Source: Acidobacteriota bacterium | GTDB lineage: Bacteria > Acidobacteriota > Vicinamibacteria > Vicinamibacterales > CAVVIG01 | Direction: 5' to 3' | DNA length: 39,267 nucleotides | Assembly (NCBI GenBank): GCA_023265105.1 | Contig: JAHFUJ010000009.1 | Location: forward strand, 1-39,267 | Shown here: positions 12,385 through 34,579 of the stretch, piece after piece | Layout of the letters: each line of letters begins with the position of its first letter | Numbering within the stretch: position 1 is the stretch's first letter | Position numbers and translations under genes: made by a program | Notes under the pieces: generated by a model | Told to the model about the DNA's origin: nothing | Seen by the model: only the letters and a program-made list of their open reading frames with translations | Database searches by the model: none

Positions 12385-12798
12385 TCAGGAGACGATCTGT
12401 ATCGATTGATGGCGATGCCCGCGACGCACTCGATACGTCTCGAAGTCGTTCCGATCGATCGTGAACACCCGCCGGGTGCGAAGCGCCTCGGCGGCAGTCA
12501 CGAGCGACGCGTCCGCCAGATCCATTGGACGATCCGCGTACAACTCCATGAGCTCGAACGCTCGCGTCAGTGCAGGTCGGTCAAAGAACCACACCAACAG
12601 TCCGCCGCTTTCGATGAACTCCCTCAGTCGGTCTGACCCGATGCTCGCCGGGCCCAGGATGTGAAACGCTTCGGTGAGCACAGGCGTCGTGGTCATGATC
12701 GGCTCCCGAAGCCCCTTCAGGGCATTCACACACCTGGCGTGCTGCCTGTCCTGGGGATCGAACAGGGCGACGAGTGGCCCCGTGTCCACGAGGGTCAT
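12385..12798 (-). CDS. PIN-domain ribonuclease toxin, VapC-like
   Basis: A 137-aa PIN-domain protein. The acidic active site is visible: D5 in MTLVDTGPLV, E43 in LTEAFHIL, D93/D96 in PMDLADASLV and D115 in FTIDRNDF. VapC toxins are Mg2+-dependent RNases that cut tRNA or rRNA and are held inactive by a VapB partner. The gene overlaps the stop of the upstream antitoxin gene by 4 bp (ATGA), which fits translational coupling. It sits between unrelated genes and so looks like an inserted cassette. Confidence 0.9.
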   Translation of the reverse strand: MTLVDTGPLVALFDPQDRQHARCVNALKGLREPIMTTTPVLTEAFHILGPASIGSDRLREFIESGGLLVWFFDRPALTRAFELMELYADRPMDLADASLVTAAEALRTRRVFTIDRNDFETYRVRRGHRHQSIQIVS

Positions 12799-13058
12799 CG
12801 CCGAAGCTTCTTGCGAAGTGCCGTGGCCACGCCGCGGCGCGTATCCGTCGACGGCGCGACGGCGTAGCCGCCGGGGCCGAGATCGAGCTGCTGATAGAGG
12901 TCGTAGGGCCTTCGCCCCGATTCTTCCGCGACGCGTTGCTTCAAGGATTGCAGTCCCTGCTTCAGCGCCTCCGAAATCGGCAACCCTGTGGCATCGCGAA
13001 TCTGCTGGAGCACGGCCTCCGCCTCGTCGTCAAGTCTCACCGTGCGAGTCGCCACCAT
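12795..13058 (-). CDS. Ribbon-helix-helix antitoxin, VapB-like
   Basis: An 87-aa protein that starts with a ribbon-helix-helix DNA-binding segment (RTVRLDDEAEAVLQQI, then GLPISEALKQGL) and ends in a basic, probably flexible tail that would wrap the toxin. It is the antitoxin of the overlapping PIN-domain gene and very likely represses the shared promoter just upstream. The start ATG at 13058 is directly preceded by AGAGGTGG. Confidence 0.85.
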   Translation of the reverse strand: MVATRTVRLDDEAEAVLQQIRDATGLPISEALKQGLQSLKQRVAEESGRRPYDLYQQLDLGPGGYAVAPSTDTRRGVATALRKKLRR

Positions 13059-13105
13059 CCACCTCTTGTATTACTCAGTGTATTACGTACGTCGTCTGTG
13101 GTCAA
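13059..13105 (-). promoter_or_regulatory. sigma70-like promoter with GTAATAC direct repeat for vapBC
   Basis: On the minus strand TTGACC (13105-13100) and TACACT (13082-13077) are separated by exactly 17 bp. The -10 box is embedded in two GTAATAC half-sites (GTAATACACTGAGTAATAC), a likely ribbon-helix-helix operator. The palindrome ACGTACGT lies in the spacer. Autoregulation is inferred from family knowledge. Confidence 0.6.
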
Positions 13106-13917
13106 CGTGCGCGCGGCTCGTAGCCGGCTTCTTTCCAGATCGCTTCGGCTTCGGGTGACGCGAGGTACTGGAGAAGCGCCTTCGCGGCTACCGGGTCGCT
13201 CGCGTGGGTGGAGACGAATCCCACAACCGGAACGGGCGCACAGATCGTCCGCGGCAGAACCCCGACGATGTCGTATTTGTCCTTCTCGGGAAGCATGTCG
13301 CTGAGCATGAGCAGGCCGATGTCGATGTCTCCGTTTTCCAGCCGCTTGGAAGTCTTGGTGGCGTTGTTGGTGGCCGCCGGGGAAATGCCCTGAGCGCCAG
13401 GGCCAAGTTCGACCTGACTCTTCGTGGCAACCTGGTCGGCGATCCCAAGCTTGTTCAGCGCTTCCCAGGGTCCCTGCCCTGCGACGGTAAAGTCGGGATC
13501 CTCATAGCCGATGCTCTTCGCCGCCAGGAGCGCTTTCTTGAACGCGGCGGGCGTGGAGATGTCGGGCTTCGGCCGGCCCTTTGGCACGCCCACCGCCGTG
13601 AGAATGCTCGCAACCAGTGTGGCGCTGCCGGGAACGATGGTTCCTGAGGCGATCGCTCCCGGGAACGGCGCGATGATCAGCGACACGTCGAGGCCCTGGC
13701 CCTTGGCAACCATCCGTCTGGTCTCCGCACCATTGCCGTACGTCACTTTCACTTTGTGACCCGTTTTCGCCTCGAAGCTCGCGACAATCTTCGCGGTGGG
13801 CGCACGCATGGGACCGACAGCCAGCAGAGTGATCTCACCCTGCGCGCGCGCGCTCGTCCAACCGCCAAGCACGAGCACGATCGCGAAAATCACTGAAGCA
13901 GTCTTCGTGTGTTTCAT
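13102..13917 (-). CDS. ModA-like periplasmic substrate-binding protein
   Basis: A 271-aa exported protein; the ATG at 13917 gives a clean signal peptide (KHTKTASVIFAIVLVLGG, ending SARAQ). The mature part is a type-2 periplasmic binding fold like the molybdate-binding ModA family: ITLLAVGPMRAPTAKIVASF at the N-terminus, AKGQGLDVSLIIAP, and the C-terminal AKALLQYLASPEAEAIWKEAGYEP. No ABC transporter permease or ATPase gene is nearby, so it may act as a binding or scavenging protein, or the transporter is elsewhere. It starts 18 bp after the upstream gene and is the last gene of a five-gene run of exported proteins. Ligand unknown. Confidence 0.82.
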   Translation of the reverse strand: MKHTKTASVIFAIVLVLGGWTSARAQGEITLLAVGPMRAPTAKIVASFEAKTGHKVKVTYGNGAETRRMVAKGQGLDVSLIIAPFPGAIASGTIVPGSATLVASILTAVGVPKGRPKPDISTPAAFKKALLAAKSIGYEDPDFTVAGQGPWEALNKLGIADQVATKSQVELGPGAQGISPAATNNATKTSKRLENGDIDIGLLMLSDMLPEKDKYDIVGVLPRTICAPVPVVGFVSTHASDPVAAKALLQYLASPEAEAIWKEAGYEPRAR

Positions 13918-13935
13918 GGCTGGCTCCGACCGCAA

Positions 13936-22388: not shown

Positions 22389-23021
22389 ATGACTGTCCAA
22401 GAGCAAACGCCACAAGAACCCAGCCACGTTTCACGCCGGACCTTCATTAAAGTGGTGATTGCGAGCGGCGCGGCCGTCTCCGCATCCGCCTACCTGTTCC
22501 GTGGACCCACGTTACTGGGCCAGGGCTCGCTACCCGGCGCGGTGGAGCGTCTGATGACGTTGAACGTCAACGGCCAGATGCGGCGCGTGGACGTGATGAA
22601 ACAGGAAACGCTCGCCATGACGCTGCGCTACAAGCTCGGCCTCACCGGCACGAAGCTGGGCTGCGATCGATCCGAATGCGGCGCCTGCACCGTCCTGATC
22701 GACGATGTCCCGCATTACTCGTGCTCGATTCTCACGCACACGGTTCGCGCCAAGAAGATCCTGACCATCGAAGGACTCGAGACCGCAAACGGCACGCTGC
22801 ATCCGGTGCAGCAGGCGGTGGTCGACGAGCAGGGGTTCCAGTGCGCGTTCTGCATGTCCGGATTCATCATGGCGACGGTAGGTTTCCTCAAGACCAACCC
22901 GGACCCGACGCGCGCCGAACTGGCGCACGGCATTTCCGGCAACCTGTGCCGCTGCATGGATTACGACAAGATCCTGCGCTCGATGATGCGCGCCGCCCAG
23001 TACATGCAGAGGACCACCTAA
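22389..23021 (+). CDS. Mo-hydroxylase [2Fe-2S] subunit, PaoA-like, Tat-exported
   Basis: A 210-aa iron-sulfur subunit of a xanthine-oxidase-family enzyme. It begins with a Tat signal (SRRTFIKVVIASGAAVSASA); the ATG at 22389 is set by a GAGGTGA site. After residue 50 comes a plant-type ferredoxin domain with GCDRSECGACTVLID, then the second [2Fe-2S] domain with CAFCMSGFIM and NLCRCMDY. It carries electrons from the molybdenum site to the FAD subunit. A Tat signal only on the small subunit matches the periplasmic E. coli aldehyde oxidoreductase PaoABC, in which the folded complex is exported together. It opens an operon with FAD, cytochrome and molybdenum subunits. Confidence 0.92.
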   Translation: MTVQEQTPQEPSHVSRRTFIKVVIASGAAVSASAYLFRGPTLLGQGSLPGAVERLMTLNVNGQMRRVDVMKQETLAMTLRYKLGLTGTKLGCDRSECGACTVLIDDVPHYSCSILTHTVRAKKILTIEGLETANGTLHPVQQAVVDEQGFQCAFCMSGFIMATVGFLKTNPDPTRAELAHGISGNLCRCMDYDKILRSMMRAAQYMQRTT

Positions 23022-23086
23022 GGCCTCAATCGACGCAGGCGTAACGACGCCGGCGACGTGACACACGTGTAGGAGGAGATGGGGAC

Positions 23087-24100
23087 ATGGCAATCATTCA
23101 CGACGTAATGCCCGTCTTCGAGCTGTTTCAGCCGACGACCGTCGACGACACGCTCGCGCTCCTCGAGACGTACAAGAAGGATGCGTGGGTCCTCGCCGGG
23201 GGTCTGGACACATTCGATTGGTTGAAGGACCGCAACAAGCGCCGCAAGGTGGTCGTCGATCTCAGCGGCGTTCAGGAACTGAGGGGCGTGAAGACGACCG
23301 CCGATGGCGGAATCGAGATCGGCGCGGCGACCACGCTCACCGACGTGGTGAAGCATCCACTCGTCAAGGAGAAGTATCCGATTCTGATGCAGGCAGCCGA
23401 GCTGGTGGCCTCGCCGCAGATTCGCAATCAGGGCACCGTTGGCGGCAACGTCTCGCAGGATACGCGTTGCTGGTACTACCGTTCGGGGTGGTCCTGCTAT
23501 CGGGCCGGCGGCAACATCTGCTACGCAGACACACCAAGCGCCATCAATCGCGAGCATGCGATCTTCGACGCGAACCGCTGCGTGGCGGTGAATCCGTCGG
23601 ATACGGCGCCGGCGCTCATCGCACTCGACGCCAGGATGGTGATTCGCTCCTCGGACGGTGAGCGCGTGGTTGACGCGGAGACCTACTTCATCGGACCGTC
23701 GATCGACATCACGCGGATGACGGTGCTGCGGCCAGGCGAGCTGCTGACGGCGATTCGTGTCCCGGCCACGTGGGCGGGCGCGGAGTTCTACTTCGAAAAA
23801 GTCCGCGAGCGCCAGGTGTGGGACTTCCCGCTCGTGAACGTCGCGGCGGTGCTGAAGGTGTCCAACGGCACCATTGCCGGCTCGCGTATCGTCATCAATG
23901 CCGTGGCCGCGCATCCGGTGCGGCTGAAGGCGGTGGAAGACGCCGTCGCGGGCAAGCGGCGGAACGAAGAGACGGCCAGGATGGCGGGTGAGCTGGCGGT
24001 GCAGGGCGCCCGGCCGCTCGCGCATAACGGATACAAGATCCCTCTCGTGAGGAACCTGGTAAAACGTGCCATCAGGGGAGAGGCACAGGCACGAGCATGA
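23087..24100 (+). CDS. Mo-hydroxylase FAD subunit with extra 4-Cys cluster, PaoB-like
   Basis: A 337-aa FAD-binding subunit of the CO dehydrogenase/xanthine dehydrogenase medium-chain family. FAD-binding blocks are VLAGGLDTFDWLK (35-47) and IRNQGTVGGNVSQDTRC (112-128). Directly after the second block is an insertion with four cysteines, C128, C137, C145 and C165 (RCWYY, WSCY, NICYA, NRCVAV), followed by VNPSDTAPALIALDA. This pattern matches the additional [4Fe-4S] cluster known in PaoB and in the beta subunit of 4-hydroxybenzoyl-CoA reductase, and most medium chains lack it. The stop overlaps the next start as ATGA. It lies 65 bp after the small-subunit gene. Confidence 0.9.
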   Translation: MAIIHDVMPVFELFQPTTVDDTLALLETYKKDAWVLAGGLDTFDWLKDRNKRRKVVVDLSGVQELRGVKTTADGGIEIGAATTLTDVVKHPLVKEKYPILMQAAELVASPQIRNQGTVGGNVSQDTRCWYYRSGWSCYRAGGNICYADTPSAINREHAIFDANRCVAVNPSDTAPALIALDARMVIRSSDGERVVDAETYFIGPSIDITRMTVLRPGELLTAIRVPATWAGAEFYFEKVRERQVWDFPLVNVAAVLKVSNGTIAGSRIVINAVAAHPVRLKAVEDAVAGKRRNEETARMAGELAVQGARPLAHNGYKIPLVRNLVKRAIRGEAQARA

Positions 24101-24951
24101 ATTTCCTGGTGCAGTGGGGCGTAAACCCCTGGGGCGAGGACACGATCATCCACGCGCAGTGGAGTCTGGTCTACGTGGCATTGGCGTTTGGCGTCTGCTT
24201 CATGCTGGGGCATACGCTCTTCGTGAAGTTCTGGCCAAAGCCGGCGGGACCGAGCAGCGCGCCGCTGAACGAAGCGGCAGCGGCCAACGTGCCTGCGCGC
24301 GTGCCGCGGCACTCGCTTGCGGCACGGATGTTCCACTGGATCATGGCGGCGTCGATGCTGACGCTGCTCGGCACGGCCATGGTGCCGATCCTCGGGCTCG
24401 AGTTCAACTGGGTGGAGATCCACTGGATCGCCGGCCTCGTCCTCACGGTTTCGATCATTTACCACATCATCCACGCGAGCTTCTGGCTGGACTTCTGGTC
24501 GATCTGGCTGAACAAGGAAGATGCGAGCGAGGCGATCACGCGGTTGAAGCGGGCCATGGGCCGGAGCGCGCCGGCGCCGCGCAAGGCCGCGAAATATCCC
24601 TGGGACAACAAGATGTATCACACGGCCATCGTGCTGTCGGCGCTCGCCGTTGTGCCGACAGGGCTGTTCATGATGAAGCGCGTGGAGACGGTCCTCTTCG
24701 CACGTAATCCGTATCTGTTCAGCGACGGCACGTGGGGCGTGATGTACGTCCTCCACGGGCTGGCGGGCATCGGGCTGGTGGGCTTGATCATCGCGCACAT
24801 CTATTTCGCGATCCGGCCGGAGAAGCTCTGGATTACCAAGGGCATGGTGTTCGGCGACATCAGCCGCCAGGAGTTTCTCGAGCACCACGATCCGGAGCGC
24901 TGGATCATCGGTACCAACGCCCACGGCGCTCCTGAACAACAGCGCCTGTGA
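24097..24951 (+). CDS. Membrane cytochrome b561-type subunit (formate dehydrogenase gamma-like)
   Basis: A 284-aa membrane protein with about five helices: LVYVALAFGVCFMLGHTLF near the N-terminus, then FHWIMAASMLTLLGTAM, VEIHWIAGLVLTVSIIYHIIH, YHTAIVLSALAVVPTGLFM, and YVLHGLAGIGLVGLIIAHIYF. Histidines at FHW, IHWI, YHIIH, LHG and AHIYF are placed as haem-b ligands, as in FdhI/HupC-type cytochromes. Such subunits pass electrons between a periplasmic enzyme and the quinone pool. The ATGA overlap with the FAD-subunit gene ties it firmly to this hydroxylase. PaoABC itself has no such subunit, so this complex would be quinone-linked instead of soluble; that is inference. Confidence 0.88.
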   Translation: MNFLVQWGVNPWGEDTIIHAQWSLVYVALAFGVCFMLGHTLFVKFWPKPAGPSSAPLNEAAAANVPARVPRHSLAARMFHWIMAASMLTLLGTAMVPILGLEFNWVEIHWIAGLVLTVSIIYHIIHASFWLDFWSIWLNKEDASEAITRLKRAMGRSAPAPRKAAKYPWDNKMYHTAIVLSALAVVPTGLFMMKRVETVLFARNPYLFSDGTWGVMYVLHGLAGIGLVGLIIAHIYFAIRPEKLWITKGMVFGDISRQEFLEHHDPERWIIGTNAHGAPEQQRL

Positions 24952-24957
24952 CCCATC

Positions 24958-25377
24958 ATGCGCGACCGACTCAAAGATCGCTGCGAGAAGATTGAGGAGT
25001 GCTACGAGTTCATGCTCGCCTATGCCGCGCAGGGTCTTCGGACCGAGCCGGGCGGCGGCAGCGGCTCGCAGCTTCGGACGCTGTTGACGAAGTGCGATGA
25101 GGCGCTCACCGGTCTCGGGGACGTGTTCACGGAGATCGTGCGGAGCGAACAGCTCCGGCCCACGGAGAAGTACGATGCGTTCATCGCCATGCTGAACCGG
25201 GACGCCAGCGACGCCCGCGCCGCGGTCGGCCTGGTGCTGGCGCAGCCCTCAATCAGCTCGCAGCTGATCGACAATCTCAACGCGTCGATTCACCTCCGGG
25301 CGCTACTCACCGATCTGTTTCTCATCGACGAGATCGTCCGGCCGGAAACCGTTGGCAGCACGGCGGCGTTACCCTGA
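24958..25377 (+). CDS. Unknown 139-aa protein inside the Mo-hydroxylase operon
   Basis: A 139-aa, mostly helical, soluble protein, 6 bp after the cytochrome gene and 24 bp before the molybdenum-subunit gene. It begins MRDRLKDRCEKIEECYEF, has no signal or membrane helix, and holds three cysteines (C9, C15, C42). I do not recognise the family. Its position between the cytochrome and catalytic subunit genes suggests a dedicated assembly or chaperone factor, comparable in role to PaoD/XdhC but unrelated in sequence. That is inference from context only. Confidence 0.72.
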   Translation: MRDRLKDRCEKIEECYEFMLAYAAQGLRTEPGGGSGSQLRTLLTKCDEALTGLGDVFTEIVRSEQLRPTEKYDAFIAMLNRDASDARAAVGLVLAQPSISSQLIDNLNASIHLRALLTDLFLIDEIVRPETVGSTAALP

Positions 25378-25401
25378 GAACTTCCTGTACGAGGTGTGAG
25401 C

Positions 25402-27888
25402 ATGGCTGACAAGAAACTCGTCGGACAAAACTACACGACCCCCGATCTCAGGGCGAAAGTGACTGGCCGCTCGAAATATGCGGAGGACTTCCGCGCCGAG
25501 GGGATGCTGTTTGCGAGGCTGCTCCTCAGCCCGTTCCCGCACGCGCGCATCCAGAGCATCGATACGAGAGCGGCGCTCGCCATGCCGGGCGTGAGAGCGA
25601 TTCTGACGGCCGACGATGTGCCCGGACCCAAGGATCAGGTCAGCGACGCGGGCGTTGTCATCAGAGCCAACCCCAGGAGCGAGAAGGCGCTGACCAACGA
25701 GCCGCTCTATCAGGGCGAACCCGTTCTTGCCGTGGCGGCCGTCGACGAGCTGACGGCGGTTGAAGCGATCGAAAAGATCAAGATTCGTTGGGAGCGGCTG
25801 CCGTTCAGTGTGGATCCGGTCGCCTCGCTCCTGCCGGGTGCGATGAATGCCCGTGTGGAGGGGAACGTCTGGGTGCGGCCCACGCCCGTGCAAGGGCAGC
25901 CAGCTCCCCTGCCCGAAGTGATCGACTTGAAATGGACTGAGGCGGAAGTCGAGGAGTACAAGGCGGGTCGTCTGCCCATGGGCAAGGACACCGATCCGAG
26001 CTGGTCGTACGGCGACATCGAGGCCGGCTTCAAGAAAGCGTCGCTCATCCTCGACGAGACCTTCGTCACGCCGAACACCAGCCATCAGTGCCTCGAGAGC
26101 CGCACGTCGATGGCGTACTGGCAGAACGGCAAGCTGTTCATCCACTTGTCGACGCAGAGCACCGTGCAGACCGTCATGTCGGTCGTGCGCTGGCTGAGCA
26201 TCGAGCCGGAGAACGTCGTACTCATCAGCGAGTACTGCGGCGGCGGTTATGGGAGCAAGGGGACGGGGACGGTCTCGGATGTCATCCCGGCGCTCCTGGC
26301 CAAGAAGACGGGCACGCCGGTGCAGATGCGCATCAGCCGCGAGGAAGAGCACTCCATTGGCGGCGGGCGTCCCGCCGTGCACGGCCGGATGAAGGTCGGG
26401 TTTACCAAGGAAGGCCGCATCACTGCGGTCGACATGTTCACCGTGGTCGAAGGCGGGCCATACGGCCCGGGGAACGACGGGAACACGGCCAGCCGCTTCG
26501 CGTCGCTGCTGTTTCAACCCGAGGCCATGCGCTGGCGCGGTGTGACGGCGATTACCAACACGCCGCCTCGACGAGCGCAGAGCCAGCCTGGCGGTATGCA
26601 AGGCATCGTGCTGATGGAACCGGTGGTCGCCAAGGCGGCACGCCGGCTCGGGATCGACCAGGTCGAAATCCGGAAGATCAATGCGCCTGCCGGCAAAGCC
26701 AGGTTCGGCGCCGCGGACGCGCGGGGCAACCGGACCTATACGACCAGTTGCTTCGTCAAGGAGGCGCTTGATAAGGGAGCGCAGATCTTCAAGTGGGATG
26801 AACGCAAAGCCCGGAACGGACAGCGCGAGGGCTCGAAGGTGCGTGGCAGCGGCGTGGCGATTAGCGCCTATAACGCCGGCTCAGTCGGCTTCGACGGCCT
26901 CTTCGTCATCAAGCCGGACGGCCGGATGTACATCCAGACCGGCATCGGCAACCTTGGCACCGAATCGTTTTCTGATTGTCAGCGGGTTGCCGCCGAGATG
27001 ATGGGGATGCCCTGGGAGAAATGTGAGCTCACCTGGGGCGACACATCCAGGAACCTGCCGTGGAGCTGCGTGTCGGGTGGCAGCCAGACGACACACGCGA
27101 TGACGCGCGCCGCGCACGCCACGGCGACCGATGCCATCAAGAAGCTGCAGCAGATCGCCGCCAAGGATCTCGGCGGCCGGCCCGAGGACTATGTCGTGGC
27201 CAACGAGCGGGTCGCGCGCCGAGGTGGAGGTGCCGGCATGACGCTCGCCCATGCTGCGCAGCGGGCGATCGAGCTCGGAGGGATGTACGACGGTCACGAA
27301 GTGCCCAAAGAGATCAACGCCTTCACCAAGCGATCTGCCGCGGCGCTTGCCGGGCAGGGCCTGATGGGCGTGGCAAAGGACGCGTACCCGCGCGACGGCG
27401 CTTCAGTGTCCTTCGTTGCCGCGTTTGCTGAGGTCGAGGCGGACGTCGAGACAGGCGTGTACCGCATTCTCGACTATCTCTGCGTCGCCGACGTCGGGAC
27501 CGTCATCCATCCAGCGTCGCTGGGTGGCCAGGTGCTCGGCCGCTCGATCCTGGGCATTGGACACGCCATCGGCCAGCGGTGGGTGTACGACCAGCAATAT
27601 GGCGTGGCGCTTGCGCGGAGGTTCTATCAGAACAAACCGCCCTCGATTCTCGACGTGCCGGCGCACATGGATTGGGCGGCTGTCGAGCTTCCGGATCCGG
27701 AGACGCCGGTTGGCGCACGCGGCATCGGCGAGCCTCCGGTTGCAGCCGGCTGCTGCGCCGTCCTGAACGCGATTTCCGCCGCGGTGGGTGACGAGGTGTT
27801 CGTGCGCGCGCCCGTGACGCTCGACCACATCGTGACCGCGCTCGAAATGGGCAGACCCACGCAGGCCCGATTGACGGCGAACGTCTGA
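25402..27888 (+). CDS. Mo-hydroxylase molybdopterin-binding catalytic subunit
   Basis: An 828-aa catalytic subunit of the xanthine dehydrogenase/aldehyde oxidase family, with a GAGGTG site before the ATG at 25402. It has the N-terminal hammerhead domain (GRSKYAEDF, LLLSPFPHARI), molybdopterin contacts in YCGGGYGSKG, and the conserved catalytic Glu in VGARGIGEPPVAAG near the C-terminus. Family members hydroxylate aldehydes, purines, aromatic CoA thioesters or CO. It lacks the CO-dehydrogenase active-site loop (AYRCSFR), so CO is unlikely. It has no signal of its own; export would depend on the small subunit. Substrate unknown; aldehyde or aromatic substrates are the simplest guess from the PaoB-like FAD subunit. 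Confidence 0.92.
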   Translation: MADKKLVGQNYTTPDLRAKVTGRSKYAEDFRAEGMLFARLLLSPFPHARIQSIDTRAALAMPGVRAILTADDVPGPKDQVSDAGVVIRANPRSEKALTNEPLYQGEPVLAVAAVDELTAVEAIEKIKIRWERLPFSVDPVASLLPGAMNARVEGNVWVRPTPVQGQPAPLPEVIDLKWTEAEVEEYKAGRLPMGKDTDPSWSYGDIEAGFKKASLILDETFVTPNTSHQCLESRTSMAYWQNGKLFIHLSTQSTVQTVMSVVRWLSIEPENVVLISEYCGGGYGSKGTGTVSDVIPALLAKKTGTPVQMRISREEEHSIGGGRPAVHGRMKVGFTKEGRITAVDMFTVVEGGPYGPGNDGNTASRFASLLFQPEAMRWRGVTAITNTPPRRAQSQPGGMQGIVLMEPVVAKAARRLGIDQVEIRKINAPAGKARFGAADARGNRTYTTSCFVKEALDKGAQIFKWDERKARNGQREGSKVRGSGVAISAYNAGSVGFDGLFVIKPDGRMYIQTGIGNLGTESFSDCQRVAAEMMGMPWEKCELTWGDTSRNLPWSCVSGGSQTTHAMTRAAHATATDAIKKLQQIAAKDLGGRPEDYVVANERVARRGGGAGMTLAHAAQRAIELGGMYDGHEVPKEINAFTKRSAAALAGQGLMGVAKDAYPRDGASVSFVAAFAEVEADVETGVYRILDYLCVADVGTVIHPASLGGQVLGRSILGIGHAIGQRWVYDQQYGVALARRFYQNKPPSILDVPAHMDWAAVELPDPETPVGARGIGEPPVAAGCCAVLNAISAAVGDEVFVRAPVTLDHIVTALEMGRPTQARLTANV
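27765..27812 (+). repeat. 48-bp repeat, copy A (in the Mo-subunit 3' end)
   Basis: This stretch encodes NAISAAVGDEVFVRAP near the end of the catalytic subunit. A copy with 2 mismatches lies in the same orientation at 29654-29701. Confidence 0.85.
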
Positions 27889-27923: not shown

Positions 27924-27981
27924 CCGCATGTGCGGAAGTTGGCGCCTCAGGCCCTGGGGCGCCGTCGCTTCAGCGAAGGCG
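27924..27981 (+). repeat. Dispersed intergenic repeat, copy 1 (short form)
   Basis: It contains CCGCATGTGCGG (palindrome-like) at 27924-27935, AAGTTGG, then CAGGCCCTGGGGCGCCGTCG, CTTCAGCGAAGGCG. Compared with copy 3 (34671-34830) it lacks about 38 internal bases and the right half. It covers the last four codons of the PIN-domain gene. Confidence 0.75.
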
Positions 27982-28440
27982 TTGGGATGGGTACGGCATG
28001 ACGAAGTCGAACGCGAAGACCTTCGCGATCCTGGACAAGTCAGTTGCATTGCGTGAGACGAGGGTCGCGCCAATGTCTCGGCACGACCGCGCAATGAGAA
28101 TATCGAACACGAAGCTGCGACGTACGTCGCGGAGCACGAGGCCCTCATCGTCCACGAGCGTGGCGAGCGTCGTTCCCAACGCCTCCCAGGCGGCAGGCGA
28201 CGGATTCACCAGTCGCCCACGACGCACGTAGGGCGACAGGATCTCTCGCTCTAAGGTGCGACGGTTCTTTGCGCTTCCGGCTCCTGCTCGGAGTTCGGCC
28301 GCGACGACCGTGCTGAGATACAGCCTCGGCGCCGTCCTTGCACAGAACTCCGCAAATGCAGCCGCCTCGTCATCCCTGCGGGACGCGTCGACGAAACAGT
28401 TCGTATCCAGTACGAACTTGCCGGATCCGGCGGCGGGCAT
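27970..28440 (-). CDS. PIN-domain ribonuclease toxin, VapC-like
   Basis: A 156-aa PIN-domain protein. Landmarks: D12 in FVLDTNCFVDAS, E49 in STVVAAEL, and FVFDILIARSCRD followed by LVSRNATDLSRI at the C-terminal acidic site. Its start is 3 bp after the antitoxin stop. The very end (QRLR and the stop codon) is encoded by dispersed repeat copy 1, so the original C-terminus was probably altered by the repeat. It forms a toxin-antitoxin pair with the gene before it. Confidence 0.87.
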   Translation of the reverse strand: MPAAGSGKFVLDTNCFVDASRRDDEAAAFAEFCARTAPRLYLSTVVAAELRAGAGSAKNRRTLEREILSPYVRRGRLVNPSPAAWEALGTTLATLVDDEGLVLRDVRRSFVFDILIARSCRDIGATLVSRNATDLSRIAKVFAFDFVMPYPSQRLR

Positions 28441-28443
28441 TCG

Positions 28444-28656
28444 TCAGTCGATGCGCGACAGGGTGAGACCGTGCAATGCGCGCGCGCCCCGCGCAAGCTC
28501 TTTCCTGAAGCCGACCAGATCCAGGGCCATTTCCACAGCCTCTCGCTCGCTCGATGCCCCGAGTGCTGCTTTTGCCTCGTCGAGGAGCTGCGGATCGAGC
28601 CAAAACGCCTTGCGGACCTTTCCGGCCCGTGTCGCCCGCGCACCCGAGATCGCCAC
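28444..28656 (-). CDS. VapB-like antitoxin
   Basis: A 70-aa protein whose middle, KVRKAFWLDPQLLDEAKAAL, followed by ASSEREAVEMALDLVGFRKEL, fits a VapB-type ribbon-helix-helix antitoxin. The start is uncertain: GTG at 28656 gives VAISGARATRAGK; an in-frame ATG at 28749 gives a longer, Ser/Arg-rich N-terminus that looks non-genuine. It is coupled to the PIN-domain toxin gene 3 bp downstream. Confidence 0.7.
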   Translation of the reverse strand: MAISGARATRAGKVRKAFWLDPQLLDEAKAALGASSEREAVEMALDLVGFRKELARGARALHGLTLSRID

Positions 28657-28997
28657 GCGCGGTCGAGATGATCGGGTCCGGCTCGACGAGCGACGGCGGC
28701 GGGTCGATGCTGGCACAGATCCTCCAGTTCGTACGCCAGAGCATACCATGTCGTACGCACGAATGTGCGGAGCTACGGGCCAGACCTTTTCGAGATGCCC
28801 GTTGATCGGATCGAGCAATCCCGATGGGAAGTACCAAGAATCAGGCTGCGTAATCCTTAGAAGGTGGCTCCTCGGGCTTGGGGCACCGTAGCTTCAGCGA
28901 AGGCGCCTGGATTCGCGCCAAGCGCGGCGAGAGCCGCGCGACGCCTGAGGATAGCGTGGTGAGGCAAGACCAGTCGCTGTCGCAGCCGATCGCAACG
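28657..28997. other. Spacer between antitoxin and cyclophilin genes
   Basis: This 341-bp region holds the presumed antitoxin promoter, which I could not pinpoint, and dispersed repeat copy 2 (28860-28971). I see no further gene. Confidence 0.5.
28860..28971 (+). repeat. Dispersed intergenic repeat, copy 2
   Basis: About 112 bp: GAAGGTGGCTCCTC, TGGGGCACCGTAGCTTCAGC, AAGGCGCCTGGATTCG, CAAGCGCGGCGAGAGCCG, GACGCCTGA and AAGACC. It matches copy 3 closely in the same order, with scattered substitutions that break the perfect hairpin of copy 3. Confidence 0.8.
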
Positions 28998-29713: not shown

Positions 29714-31366
29714 TCACGACAATCTGCGATCCGGCGTGATCTGATCGCGATCCACGCTCAGCTCCAGCAGCGCGGGCCGTCCGGCGTGCAGCGCCCGATC
29801 GAACGCGCCGGCGAACGCGTCGGTCGATTCGACCCGCTCGGCACAGGCGCCCAGCGAGTGCGCCAGCGCGACAAAGTCCGGCGACGCGAGATCGGTCGCC
29901 GACACGCGGCCGGGGAATCGCCGCTCCTGGTGCATCCGGATCGTCCCGTACATCCCGTTGTTGACGACGAGCACGATGATGGCGGCGCCATTCTGCGAGG
30001 CGGTCGCGAGCTCCTGGGGATACATCAGGAAATCACCGTCGCCGGCAAAACAGACCACGGTTCGATCGGGATGGCGCAGCTTTGCTGCGACCGACGCCGG
30101 CAGGCCGTATCCCATCGACCCGCTGGTCGGCGCCAGCTCCGTGTGAGGCTGCTTGTACGTGAAGAATCGATGGACCCAGATGGTGAAGTTGCCCGCGCCG
30201 TTGGCGATCATCGCGTCCGGCGGTAAGAGCCCGGACAGGTACGAGACGACGGCGGCGAGATCCACGCCCTCGGACGGGGCTTTCGCGGGGCGAGCCGCGA
30301 ACTGTTCGTACTCACGCCGCGCCTCTTCTGTCGTCGAGCGCCACGGCGGATCGCTGACGGGCTTCAACTTCGCGAGCTCGATGGCACACAGCGACGGAGA
30401 GGCATTGATTGCGAGGTCAGGCTGATACACGCGGCCAAGCTCATGTGGATCCGGATGGATGTGTACGAGGCGCTGCGGGATGCGCGGCGGTTTCAGCACC
30501 GTATACCCGAACGTGGTCACGTCGCCAAGACGCGAACCGAGCGCGATCACCAGATCAGCGCCGCGGACGCGATTCTGGAGAAACGGCGGCAGGCCGAGGC
30601 TGAGATGCCCCGCGTAGCATGGATGCCGATTGTCGATGAGATCCTGGCGCCTGAAGGACGCGAGCACGGGCACAGCGTTCGCCTGCGCGAATGCCGCCAG
30701 TGCGGCGCATCCTTCGTCGGACCATCTCGAGCCTCCAAGAATGAGCAGCGGTCGCTTCGCGCGTTCGAGCTCGGTGCCGACCGCCTCGACATCGCGCGGC
30801 TTCGGTGAGGCCTGCACCGGGCAGTAGCGCAGCGTATCGGCGGCCGGCGTCGTCTCCACAAGGACGTCCTCAGGCAACGCAAGGACGACAGGACCAGGAC
30901 GCCCGGAGGTGGCGATCTGAAAGGCGCGCAGCACGAACTCCGGGATCCGATCAGCCGTGTCGATTTCGGCCGTCCACTTGGCGAGCGGCGCGAACATCTG
31001 GCTGAACTCGACCTCCTGGAAGGCTTCCCGTCCGCGTGCCTCGCGCGCGACCTGGCCGACGAACAGGATCATCGGCGTCGAGTCCTGGAATGCCGTGTGG
31101 ACGCCGACGCTTGCATGCGTGGCCCCTGGCCCACGCGTTACGAAACAGATGCCGGGCCGGCCGGTGAGCTTGCCGTCGGCTTCCGCCATGTTGGCCGCGG
31201 CGCCCTCGTGCTTGGCGACCACGACGGCAATCTCCGGGTAGTCGTACAGCGCATCGAGCACGTCGAGATAGCTTTCGCCGGGGACGCAGAACAGTCGATC
31301 GACGCCGTGGACGCGCAGGGCGTCGACCAGAATGCGCCCGCCACTGCGGGCCGCGGTGTCAGGCAT
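29714..31366 (-). CDS. Thiamine-diphosphate-dependent enzyme (acetolactate synthase/benzoylformate decarboxylase-like)
   Basis: A 550-aa cytoplasmic ThDP enzyme with the three usual domains. The catalytic Glu is E54 in AKHEGAAANMAEADG. The ThDP/Mg2+ motif near the C-terminus runs from GDGDFLMYPQELATAS to VVNN. The middle domain reads LLILGGSRWSDEGC. Family members decarboxylate 2-oxo acids or condense pyruvate. No clear FAD-binding residues or small regulatory subunit gene are seen, so branched-chain synthesis is less likely than decarboxylation. The start overlaps the end of the symporter gene by 8 bp. With the aldehyde dehydrogenase and symporter genes it forms a plausible route: uptake of an acid, decarboxylation and aldehyde oxidation (inference). 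Confidence 0.85.
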   Translation of the reverse strand: MPDTAARSGGRILVDALRVHGVDRLFCVPGESYLDVLDALYDYPEIAVVVAKHEGAAANMAEADGKLTGRPGICFVTRGPGATHASVGVHTAFQDSTPMILFVGQVAREARGREAFQEVEFSQMFAPLAKWTAEIDTADRIPEFVLRAFQIATSGRPGPVVLALPEDVLVETTPAADTLRYCPVQASPKPRDVEAVGTELERAKRPLLILGGSRWSDEGCAALAAFAQANAVPVLASFRRQDLIDNRHPCYAGHLSLGLPPFLQNRVRGADLVIALGSRLGDVTTFGYTVLKPPRIPQRLVHIHPDPHELGRVYQPDLAINASPSLCAIELAKLKPVSDPPWRSTTEEARREYEQFAARPAKAPSEGVDLAAVVSYLSGLLPPDAMIANGAGNFTIWVHRFFTYKQPHTELAPTSGSMGYGLPASVAAKLRHPDRTVVCFAGDGDFLMYPQELATASQNGAAIIVLVVNNGMYGTIRMHQERRFPGRVSATDLASPDFVALAHSLGACAERVESTDAFAGAFDRALHAGRPALLELSVDRDQITPDRRLS

Positions 31367-32615
31367 TGGCGGCGAGTTCCTGTCCGAGCTCCTGTGGCAG
31401 CTCCTGTCCGCGCGTCTCGGGCAGCATGGCCGCGGCGGCGAGCACGATGGCGTACGAGGACATCGCGCAGAGCCCGATCGCGCGCGCGAGTCCCATGTCC
31501 GCGGCCATCACGCCGACCAGCGCCGGCACGAACGAGCCCACCGCACGACCGGAGTTGTACGAAAAGCCTTGTCCTGTCGCGCGTACCCGCGTTGGGAACA
31601 GCTCCGCGAACGTCGCTCCCATGCCCGCGATGATGCCGGACTGGAAGAACCCAAGCGGGAATCCGAGCACCAGCAGCGCGTTGCCGCCCAGCGGGACGAG
31701 CGTGTAGACGGCGACGACGACCGCGGCACAGAGCGCGGTGATCACGAACGTCTTGCGGCGTCCCAGCCAGTCGCAGAGATGGGCGCTGCAGACGTAGCCG
31801 AGAAACGAGCCGGTGATGTTGACCGCCAGATAGCTCCCCGTGCCCAGGACCGACAGGTTCCGCACCGTCCTGAGGAAGGTCGGGAGCCACGTGAGGATCG
31901 TGTAGTTGCCGCCGAGCGCGCCGGCTGCAAGTAGTGACGCCGCGATCGTCCGCTGACGCAACGGCGATTGAAAGATCTCCAGCGACGTGACGCGCCGGGC
32001 GGGTGTCGCCTTGGCGCGTTGGTACACGTCCGGCTCTTCGACGTTGCGGCACATCCACAGGACGACAATTGCCGGAGCAGGGCCCAGCAGAAACAGCAGC
32101 CGCCAGGCCAGTTCGGGACTCGTCACGCTGAACAGGACGGCGTAGAGCAGGACCGCTGCGCCGTAGCCGACCGACCAGCCGCTCTGCACCGTCCCCACGA
32201 CGCGGCCGCGAATCCGCTTGTCGATCACCTCGCCGATCAGGACGGCGCCCGCGGCCCACTCGCCGCCGAACCCGAGCCCCTGCAGGCTTCGCGTGACGAG
32301 CAGCTGTTCGAACGACTGGGTCAGGCCGGACAGCACCGTGAACGTCGTGAACCAGAGAATCGTCAGCCTGAGCACGCGCACACGCCCGATCCGATCGGCC
32401 AGGATGCCGGCGATCCACCCGCCGGCCGACGAGAACAGCAGGGCCGACGTTCCCAGGATGCCCGCCTCGCTCTGCGACAGCGCCCACAGTCCGACGAGTG
32501 TCGGCAGCGCCACCGCGTAGAACTGCACGTCCATCGCATCGAGAACCCATCCCGAGAAGCAGGCCCAGAAGGTACGACGCTCGCGGACAGTGAGGTTGGT
32601 GAGCCAGATAGACAC
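31359..32615 (-). CDS. Major facilitator superfamily acid/H+ symporter (AAHS-like)
   Basis: A 418-aa twelve-helix transporter. GWVLDAMDVQFYAVALPTL (22-40) carries the first-helix Asp pair typical of aromatic acid/H+ symporters, and ADRIGRVRVL is the loop 2-3 signature. The second half has CDWLGRRKTFVI, and the C-terminus ends in the repetitive GQELPQELGQEL. Such carriers import aromatic or other organic acids across the inner membrane with protons. The gene lies between the aldehyde dehydrogenase and ThDP-enzyme genes in one minus-strand run. Substrate unknown. Confidence 0.88.
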   Translation of the reverse strand: MSIWLTNLTVRERRTFWACFSGWVLDAMDVQFYAVALPTLVGLWALSQSEAGILGTSALLFSSAGGWIAGILADRIGRVRVLRLTILWFTTFTVLSGLTQSFEQLLVTRSLQGLGFGGEWAAGAVLIGEVIDKRIRGRVVGTVQSGWSVGYGAAVLLYAVLFSVTSPELAWRLLFLLGPAPAIVVLWMCRNVEEPDVYQRAKATPARRVTSLEIFQSPLRQRTIAASLLAAGALGGNYTILTWLPTFLRTVRNLSVLGTGSYLAVNITGSFLGYVCSAHLCDWLGRRKTFVITALCAAVVVAVYTLVPLGGNALLVLGFPLGFFQSGIIAGMGATFAELFPTRVRATGQGFSYNSGRAVGSFVPALVGVMAADMGLARAIGLCAMSSYAIVLAAAAMLPETRGQELPQELGQELAANA

Positions 32616-32634
32616 GGTGGCCTCCGATCTTTGC

Positions 32635-32662
32635 GGGATTCGGGGTTCGGGATTCGGGATTC
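32635..32662. repeat. Intergenic 7-bp tandem repeat (GGGATTC)
   Basis: Four units: GGGATTC, GGGGTTC, GGGATTC, GGGATTC (from 32635, 32642, 32649 and 32656), between the symporter start and the dehydrogenase end. The period matches the arrays at 6214-6232 and 6789-6816, with a different unit. Confidence 0.85.
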
Positions 32663-32675
32663 CAGTCCCGGTCCG

Positions 32676-34133
32676 CTACATCGCGTGCTTCAAGTAGACG
32701 GTGCGAGTCTCCGTGTAGAAGTCGAGCGCCAGATGACCCTGTTCGCGCATCCCGACGCTCGATGCCTTCGTCCCGCCGAACGGAAGCTGATATTCGACGC
32801 CGGCCGTCGGCAGGTTCACCGTAATCAGTCCCGCCTCGATCCGATCGATGAACGCGTGAACGCGCGACAGGTCGTTGGACACGATCGACGCGGACAAGCC
32901 GAACTTCACGCCGTTGGCCAGGCACATCGCGTGGTCGAAGTCGTCGGCCGCCATCAGCGCCAGCACGGGGCCGAACACCTCTTCCTGCGCGATGCGCATG
33001 CCGGGCGTGACGCCGCCAAAAATAGTCGGTTCGACGAAGTATCCCTTGTCGTATGCGCCGCCGGTCAGCCGGCGGCCGCCGCACAACAACGCCGCGCCCT
33101 CCTTCCCGGCAATCTCGATGTACTCGAGATCCGTCTCGAGCTGCGCACGGTCGACGGCCGGCCCGATCTCAATCCCAGGCTCGAGGCCGTTGCCGACTTT
33201 GAGCGCCCGCGTCTTTTCGACGAGCTTTTCGGCGAGCGGCTCGTACACGGCCTTCTCGATGATCGCGCGGCTGCACGCCGTGCATTTCTGCCCGGTCGAG
33301 AAGAACGCGCCGTTGACGATCGTGCCGGCGGCGTAATCGAGGTTGGCGTCCTTGAGGACAACCGTCGGATTCTTGCCGCCCATCTCGAGCTGAACGCGCA
33401 CTCTGCGTCGCGTGGCCTTGTCGTACAGCGCATTGCCGACGTCGCACGAACCCGTAAACGAGATTGCATCCAGCTCGGGGTGCTCCACCATGGCGTTGCC
33501 CACGGTCGCGCCGCTGCCGGTGACGTAATTGAGCACGCCGGCGGGAACTCCCGCGGCGTGGAGGGCTTCGACGATCCGCAGCGCGCTCAACGGGGCGAGC
33601 GATGCCGGCTTGATCACGACCGCATTGCCCGCGACGAGCGCGGGCGCCAGTTTCCACGCGGGAATCGCGCTCGGGAAGTTCCACGGCGTCACGAGGCCGA
33701 CAACGCCCAGTGGTTTGCGTGCGGTGTAGCAGAGGACGTGTTCGCGCTCGGACGGGATCTGGTAGCTGAATTGCCGCGCGCCCTCGCCGCCGAAATAGCG
33801 CAGGATGTTGATCGTCCGCTTGACCTCGGCCTTCGCTTCGGGAAGCGTCTTGCCCTCTTCGCGCGTCATCTCCTCGCCGAGCGTCTCAAGTCGGCCGTCC
33901 AGTATCTCGGCCGCCTTGAACAGATACTCGCCGCGGCGGGGAGCCGGCAGCGCCGCCCACGCGGGCTGAGCAGCTCGCGCTGCCGCGAACGCGGTTGCGA
34001 CGTCGGCAGCGCCTGACGACTGAAAGAGTCCGACGACGTCGTCGACGTTCGCAGGGTTGATGTCGGGAAACGTCTGTCTGGACTCGCATGCGGCCCAGTG
34101 ACCGCCGACGTAGTTCAGGAACAGTTCGGGCAT
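32676..34133 (-). CDS. NAD(P)-dependent aldehyde dehydrogenase
   Basis: A 485-aa full-length aldehyde dehydrogenase. The ATG at 34133 (MPELFLNYVGGHW) was chosen over an upstream start, because it fits the family N-terminus. Landmarks: GLVTPWNFPSAIPAWKLAPA, the cofactor-loop FTGSCDVG, catalytic Glu in QLEMGGKNP, catalytic Cys in FFSTGQKCTACS, and EEVFGPVLALM. It oxidises an aldehyde to the acid; sequence features resemble the semialdehyde dehydrogenase branch. It lies 8 bp after the cupin gene and before the symporter and ThDP-enzyme genes. Confidence 0.92.
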   Translation of the reverse strand: MPELFLNYVGGHWAACESRQTFPDINPANVDDVVGLFQSSGAADVATAFAAARAAQPAWAALPAPRRGEYLFKAAEILDGRLETLGEEMTREEGKTLPEAKAEVKRTINILRYFGGEGARQFSYQIPSEREHVLCYTARKPLGVVGLVTPWNFPSAIPAWKLAPALVAGNAVVIKPASLAPLSALRIVEALHAAGVPAGVLNYVTGSGATVGNAMVEHPELDAISFTGSCDVGNALYDKATRRRVRVQLEMGGKNPTVVLKDANLDYAAGTIVNGAFFSTGQKCTACSRAIIEKAVYEPLAEKLVEKTRALKVGNGLEPGIEIGPAVDRAQLETDLEYIEIAGKEGAALLCGGRRLTGGAYDKGYFVEPTIFGGVTPGMRIAQEEVFGPVLALMAADDFDHAMCLANGVKFGLSASIVSNDLSRVHAFIDRIEAGLITVNLPTAGVEYQLPFGGTKASSVGMREQGHLALDFYTETRTVYLKHAM

Positions 34134-34141
34134 CCCGATGG

Positions 34142-34579
34142 CTACTGTTCGATGTTCACGGCGTAGTAGCCGATCGAGCCGCTCTTGGACGTGTCCTTCC
34201 ACCAATGTGGAGTATTGGCAGGAATCGTAACGACGTCGCCTTTGCTCAGATAGTGCACCTCTCCGCCCTCAATCCCGTCTCCCCGCACCTGATTCGGCTC
34301 CGTCGTCTTGGCATTGATCAGTTTTCCACCGGTCACGAAGGTCGCCTCGCCTTCGACGATGATGAAGATGTGGTTGGTTTTGCCGTGCATTTCAGCCCCG
34401 CGCTGCATCGCACGGTTCGCCAGAACGACCAGGCCGTTGTCGTTGACGATCTCTCCGCCCTTGACCATCGTCGCGGAGACCTTCTCATGGTTGACGTAGT
34501 GGACGGCCATGGGAACGCCGGCCGCTGTGACCAGGCTGCCTGCTGCAAATGCCACCGTGATCGCAAGGATGTATCGCAT
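34142..34579 (-). CDS. Exported cupin-domain protein
   Basis: A 145-aa protein with an N-terminal signal (AITVAFAAGSLVTAAG) and a single cupin barrel. The first motif has H65, H70 and E76 (EMHGKTNHIFIIVEGEA), and the second has H125 (IPANTPHWW), so the metal site looks complete. Cupins may be oxygenases, isomerases or binding proteins; here the extracytoplasmic site argues against a role in sugar metabolism. A GAGGAG site precedes the ATG. It is the first gene of the catabolic run and could bind or modify the substrate before uptake (inference). Confidence 0.85.
   Translation of the reverse strand: MRYILAITVAFAAGSLVTAAGVPMAVHYVNHEKVSATMVKGGEIVNDNGLVVLANRAMQRGAEMHGKTNHIFIIVEGEATFVTGGKLINAKTTEPNQVRGDGIEGGEVHYLSKGDVVTIPANTPHWWKDTSKSGSIGYYAVNIEQ

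Follow-up and report, generated by a model that had tools for sequence, protein, structure and literature searches.

A probable quinone-linked, Tat-exported xanthine-oxidase-family dehydrogenase encoded with an FdnI-type cytochrome b in Acidobacteriota

We questioned whether an operon encoding an apparently exported enzyme of the xanthine oxidase family, whose members are mostly cytoplasmic and typically heterotrimeric (PMC7759655), could deliver electrons to the quinone pool through a membrane cytochrome b. The operon lies in what we call the window, a stretch of 39,267 nucleotides (contig JAHFUJ010000009.1) from the genome of an Acidobacteriota bacterium. From the sequences of the locus and its relatives, we consider it probable that the operon encodes a periplasmic, membrane-anchored dehydrogenase of this family that reduces quinone via a diheme cytochrome b. 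The FdnI-type cytochrome b gene next to that of the FAD subunit offers a concrete, testable acceptor for a PaoABC-related enzyme, namely the quinone pool. If true, dedicated quinone-linked membrane cytochromes, a feature of the DMSO reductase and sulfite oxidase families (PMC7759655), would extend to the xanthine oxidase family, and mostly uncultured Acidobacteriota could obtain respiratory electrons from substrates that stay outside the cell. Full-text searches of the open-access literature found no cytochrome b-linked member of the family, and this wiring appears to be undescribed.

The operon and its hydroxylase subunits

The operon (window positions 22389-27888) comprises five co-directional genes in the order S-F-C-U-L, and re-reading of the open reading frames together with Pfam searches confirmed the coordinates and gene order given by a first-pass annotation. 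On the plus strand, S (22389..23021, 210 aa) encodes the iron-sulfur subunit, with a Tat signal and two [2Fe-2S] domains; F (23087..24100, 337 aa) encodes the FAD subunit, with an extra four-cysteine motif; C (24097..24951, 284 aa) encodes a PF01292/FdnI-type cytochrome b with five predicted membrane helices; U (24958..25377, 139 aa) encodes a conserved helical protein without known family; and L (25402..27888, 828 aa) encodes the molybdopterin catalytic subunit, in which the GIGE glutamate is kept. The intergenic gaps S/F, F/C, C/U and U/L measure 65, -4, 6 and 24 bp, with the C start overlapping the F stop by 4 bp in a shared ATGA, and scans of the operon found no terminator-like sites on the plus strand between its genes and no promoter match. 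Pfam identified S, F and L as the three subunits of a xanthine-oxidase-family enzyme, with the family domains Ald_Xan_dh_C, MoCoBD_1, MoCoBD_2, FAD_binding_5 and Fer2/Fer2_2 all scoring above their cut-offs.

The small subunit S scored 90.3 bits against Fer2_2 and 26.1 bits against Fer2, and its N-terminus carries the twin-arginine motif SRRTFIK ahead of a hydrophobic stretch. The Pfam TAT_signal match to S fell below cut-off (E 0.009); the (S/T)RRxFI motif is kept in nearly all S homologues read, and the Tat signal claimed for the small subunit is borne out by the motif and its conservation. A TatC gene is present in the same genome, and no signal peptide was seen on L. The FAD subunit contains FAD_binding_5 and CO_deh_flav_C domains, and the cluster insertion attributed to it was found exactly as described, with cysteines at positions 128, 137, 145 and 165 (C128/C137/C145/C165) that match four cysteines of E. 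coli PaoB and those of 5y6q in alignments and are conserved among F relatives. This motif is a probable [4Fe-4S] site.

Three of the four F cysteines also align with 4-hydroxybenzoyl-CoA reductase (HbcrABC), whose FAD subunit likewise carries a four-cysteine insertion. The nearest NCBIfam models of all three subunits are those of this reductase, all matched far below cut-off (155.9, 183.9 and, for HbcrA against L, 313.4 bits versus 257.8, 404.55 and 994.55), and the best PDB hit of L is 1rm6. The nearest NCBIfam models would suit a complex that runs as a reductase, in which quinol electrons passing through C reduce a substrate at the molybdenum as in HbcrABC. We regard this as highly improbable given that the F motif follows PaoB at C137 and not the reductase, that the periplasm is not expected to contain CoA esters, and that HbcrABC, to our knowledge, is a cytoplasmic enzyme without Tat signal or cytochrome that acts on a CoA ester and needs low-potential ferredoxin. 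A dehydrogenase thus remains the reading we prefer.

The catalytic subunit L contains all three molybdopterin-subunit domains (Ald_Xan_dh_C, MoCoBD_1 and MoCoBD_2), and its RGIGEPP segment aligns with KGVGE of PaoC and KSLGE of XdhA, placing the catalytic GxGE glutamate, which is conserved in relatives. L shares 25.5% identity with PaoC and 26% with XdhA, and its equivalog scores of 262.5 bits for PaoC (cut-off 1180) and 306.6 bits for XdhA (cut-off 780) are, like the HbcrA score, below cut-off. In a phylogenetic tree, 29 L proteins formed a separate clade with 100/100 support that excludes PaoC, XdhA and other family members; it sits on a long branch, and the long branches leave its exact attachment point unsure. 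Together, the low identities and scores and the separate clade indicate that the enzyme, although it would work like PaoABC plus a cytochrome, is not a PaoABC member, so the label PaoABC-like in the first-pass annotation holds for anatomy (Tat signal, four-cysteine motif and subunits) but not for descent. A conserved pocket arginine (PaoC AMRAPGE, position 350 by alignment) is serine in the window L and arginine in many relatives, and PaoC Arg440 has no arginine counterpart in L by alignment; this variation hints that substrates may differ within the family. A search of a plasmid collection returned no relative of C, and its L matches were ~30% identical.

The cytochrome and its linkage to the FAD subunit

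C scored 68.6 bits against PF01292 (cut-off 30.1) and 36.7 bits against the formate dehydrogenase gamma model TIGR01583, below the curated equivalog cut-off of 115.85. Searching the PDB with the C sequence was uninformative, and fold comparison and hhalign were needed. An AF2 model built from a 25-sequence alignment (mean pLDDT 79.9, medium confidence) contains five long helices, and its sole PDB match at E<=0.001 was FdnI, the gamma subunit of formate dehydrogenase N (Foldseek 1kqf_C, E 3e-6; TM 0.65 by target length), with which an hhalign profile comparison agrees. His18, His155 and His169 of FdnI align with His80, His220 and His234 of C, while the pairing of FdnI His57 with C His109 is our own reading from the HxxxG motif only, MAFFT having put His57 elsewhere. 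All four candidate heme ligands of C (H80, H109, H220 and H234) are invariant in the 25-sequence family alignment.

Relatives came from scanning genome contigs and from searching 396 Acidobacteriota genomes with profiles; 42 of these genomes hold the C family (E<=1e-20; the two lowest-scoring are distant relatives) and 26 hold U (E<=0.001). F directly precedes C in the same orientation in 35 loci (tblastn; not all independent species), which argues that their pairing is not due to chance. Together with the PF01292 match, the FdnI fold and the 4 bp overlap, this linkage upholds the claim of an FdhI-like cytochrome overlapping the FAD gene. The usual order is S-L-F-C(-U), and S-F-C-U-L in the window is a rearrangement found elsewhere only in L001, there without U; the order small-FAD-cytochrome b-unknown-large, for which a search had been proposed, is therefore rare, whereas the F-C linkage within it is conserved. 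Three loci read from family f51 (L130-L132) have S-L-F-C without U, and in the phylum of genome G396, U occurs in 2 of 247 genomes, with F-C-U in G396 and S-L-F-U in G448. In L001, the nearest relative (L001:6795-9902), C also lacks its first membrane helix and L is split over two frames, reflecting either genuine decay or MAG assembly error.

Some close relatives have no C (S-L-F in L093 and L094, and S-L-F-U in G448, whose genome gave no C match), which means that some members do without it. C-type cytochrome b paralogues also stand alone, with no S, F or L nearby (L133:6877-7779 and L134:7014-7841; genomes G077 and G206). Both observations would accord with C being merely a genomic neighbour and the hydroxylase a soluble periplasmic enzyme like PaoABC, but we judge this very unlikely: F-C adjacency is kept across the 35 loci while the position of L changes, S-F-C-U in two genomes (L053 and L054) keeps C without L beside it, and a PF01292 cytochrome accompanies a fused Tat-S-L protein and F in the distant genome G009. 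The G009 locus (L136:6289-12649), which encodes the cytochrome b, an MFS protein, a fused Tat-2Fe2S-molybdopterin protein of 1014 aa and a FAD subunit with the cysteine motif, is a second architecture of cytochrome b-linked hydroxylase, and its cytochrome carries all four C-equivalent histidines. We accordingly retain C as a probable subunit of the complex.

Flanking genes of the relatives are shared among close kin only and name no substrate. Next to the operon, the window contains three minus-strand genes (29714-34202). One encodes a TPP enzyme (NF006052, 832 bits); the other two, both scoring below cut-off, encode an MFS transporter closest to the aromatic-acid/H+ symport family and an aldehyde dehydrogenase closest to alpha-ketoglutaric semialdehyde dehydrogenase. 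This block looks like acid catabolism. Two minus-strand regions (12385-13058 and 27970-28818) each hold a likely toxin-antitoxin pair, in which a small antitoxin-like ORF comes before a PIN-domain gene, with the PIN call made by Pfam PIN at 27970-28440 and by appearance only at 12385-12798.

Maturation, the U protein and sharing of the S-F-C genes

The first-pass annotation had stated that the operon lacks a XdhC/PaoD maturation gene. Within the operon this is true, but the same genome carries an XdhC-family gene on contig C283 and a MocA-like gene on contig C286 (146.3 bits, below the curated cut-off of 186.45). Among relatives, an XdhC-family gene lies ~1 kb from U in L013 and its homologue is carried by L007, and XdhC and a DVU_1551-type NTP transferase are encoded downstream of S-L-F-U in G448. 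The occurrence of an XdhC-type gene elsewhere in the genome and of others in the loci of relatives suggests that ordinary XdhC-type maturation likely acts in trans. Separately, a minus-strand gene 9 kb from the operon (13102-13935) encodes a ModA-like substrate-binding protein (SBP_bac_11, 118.7 bits; TIGR01256 modA, 47.4 bits, below the cut-off of 62.5) that could serve molybdate uptake or bind another oxyanion.

U had no match in Pfam or NCBIfam, and its AF2 model (mean pLDDT 88) is helical, with no PDB fold match at E<=0.001. Searches of Pfam and of PDB sequences and folds gave no real match, and weak ones to apolipophorin, a viral fusion protein and designed bundles were dismissed as generic helices. 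A role as a substitute for XdhC was rejected, since L013, L007 (by clustering) and G448 each have U close to an XdhC-family gene and the window's own genome holds both, and a role as cytochrome partner was rejected because either gene occurs without the other: U but no C in G448, C but no U in family f51. In relatives U is linked to F/C, and it is missing from f51 and L001. Its presence in G448 without C and its absence from these loci that have C tie U to S-L-F and not to the cytochrome. U is thus a clade-specific accessory, not a core component, and our best guess, at low confidence, is that it helps S-L-F folding or export. Directly downstream of U, a NifU_N-type Fe-S scaffold gene is found in L013 (1343-1705), L007 (9351) and, by clustering, L048, which suggests dedicated cluster assembly.

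The window's own genome encodes four close L genes: that of the operon, a tandem pair on contig C149 and a lone copy on contig C102 (L089). Contig C149 (L090) reads S-L-L followed by a cut F, and contig C263 (L047) reads a cut F followed by C and U; because the two pieces of F share overlapping sequence where the contigs end, C149 and C263 probably form one second cluster, S-L-L-F-C-U. Two S-F-C(-U) sets therefore stand against four L genes, counts that are lower bounds because the genome is 79.7% complete. Genomes G253 and G277 have an S-F-C-U set with no neighbouring L, a lone L at another place and, separately, an S-L-F set that lacks C. S-F-C(-U) may accordingly be an electron-transfer platform that more than one L can use, which would fit both the surplus of L here and the lone L genes of G253 and G277. 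We tentatively propose, as a possibility we rate below even, that a Tat-exported S-F-cytochrome b platform docks interchangeable L subunits, one quinone-reducing module serving several extracytoplasmic substrates as a respiratory branch of the xanthine oxidase family.

Proposed electron route and comparison with known systems

In the mechanism we favour, S, F and L would gain their cofactors in the cytoplasm with XdhC and MocA acting in trans, be exported together on the Tat signal of S and dock on C, with U, in the part of the family that has it, perhaps assisting at the folding or export step. A substrate, either an aldehyde or an aromatic N-heterocycle, would be hydroxylated at the molybdenum, and the electrons released would travel along the [2Fe-2S] clusters, the FAD and/or the [4Fe-4S] cluster, cross two b hemes and end on quinone. 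Tat export, the four-cysteine motif and the conserved linkage of an FdhI-like cytochrome make a quinone-linked periplasmic enzyme the best reading of the locus, and on these features the quinone wiring proposed in the first-pass annotation stands, with the final electron flow to quinone being what we infer from them.

In the aldehyde dehydrogenase of acetic acid bacteria, a member of the xanthine oxidase family, a dedicated cytochrome c subunit provides the link to the membrane chain, and the large subunit of this enzyme weakly matches L (8gy3_C, 64.5 bits). By analogy, C could be a membrane dock from which electrons pass on to a soluble carrier such as a periplasmic cytochrome c. This seems unlikely to us, as no cytochrome c gene was seen in the operon or conserved beside it, and FdnI-type cytochromes normally reduce menaquinone, as is established for formate dehydrogenase N. 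Quinone reduction through C is thus preferred, and the operon differs from the acetic acid bacterial enzyme in encoding an FdnI-type cytochrome b in place of a cytochrome c subunit, the similarity being confined to L and weak.

In formate dehydrogenase N, a diheme cytochrome b connects a periplasmic molybdoenzyme with quinone, and the operon would follow this layout: C has the FdnI fold, with three of the FdnI heme-ligand histidines matched by alignment and the fourth by motif only. C has an extra N-terminal helix relative to FdnI, and the catalytic unit of formate dehydrogenase N belongs to the DMSO reductase family whereas the one described here belongs to the xanthine oxidase family. With PaoABC (YagTSR) of E. 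coli the operon shares a Tat-signalled small subunit, two [2Fe-2S] clusters, a four-cysteine FAD subunit, the catalytic glutamate and separate S, F and L genes. PaoABC, however, is a soluble heterotrimer whose electron acceptor has been stated as unidentified (PMC3958847), and paoABCD has PaoD beside its genes and no cytochrome gene, whereas the window operon has C and no PaoD.
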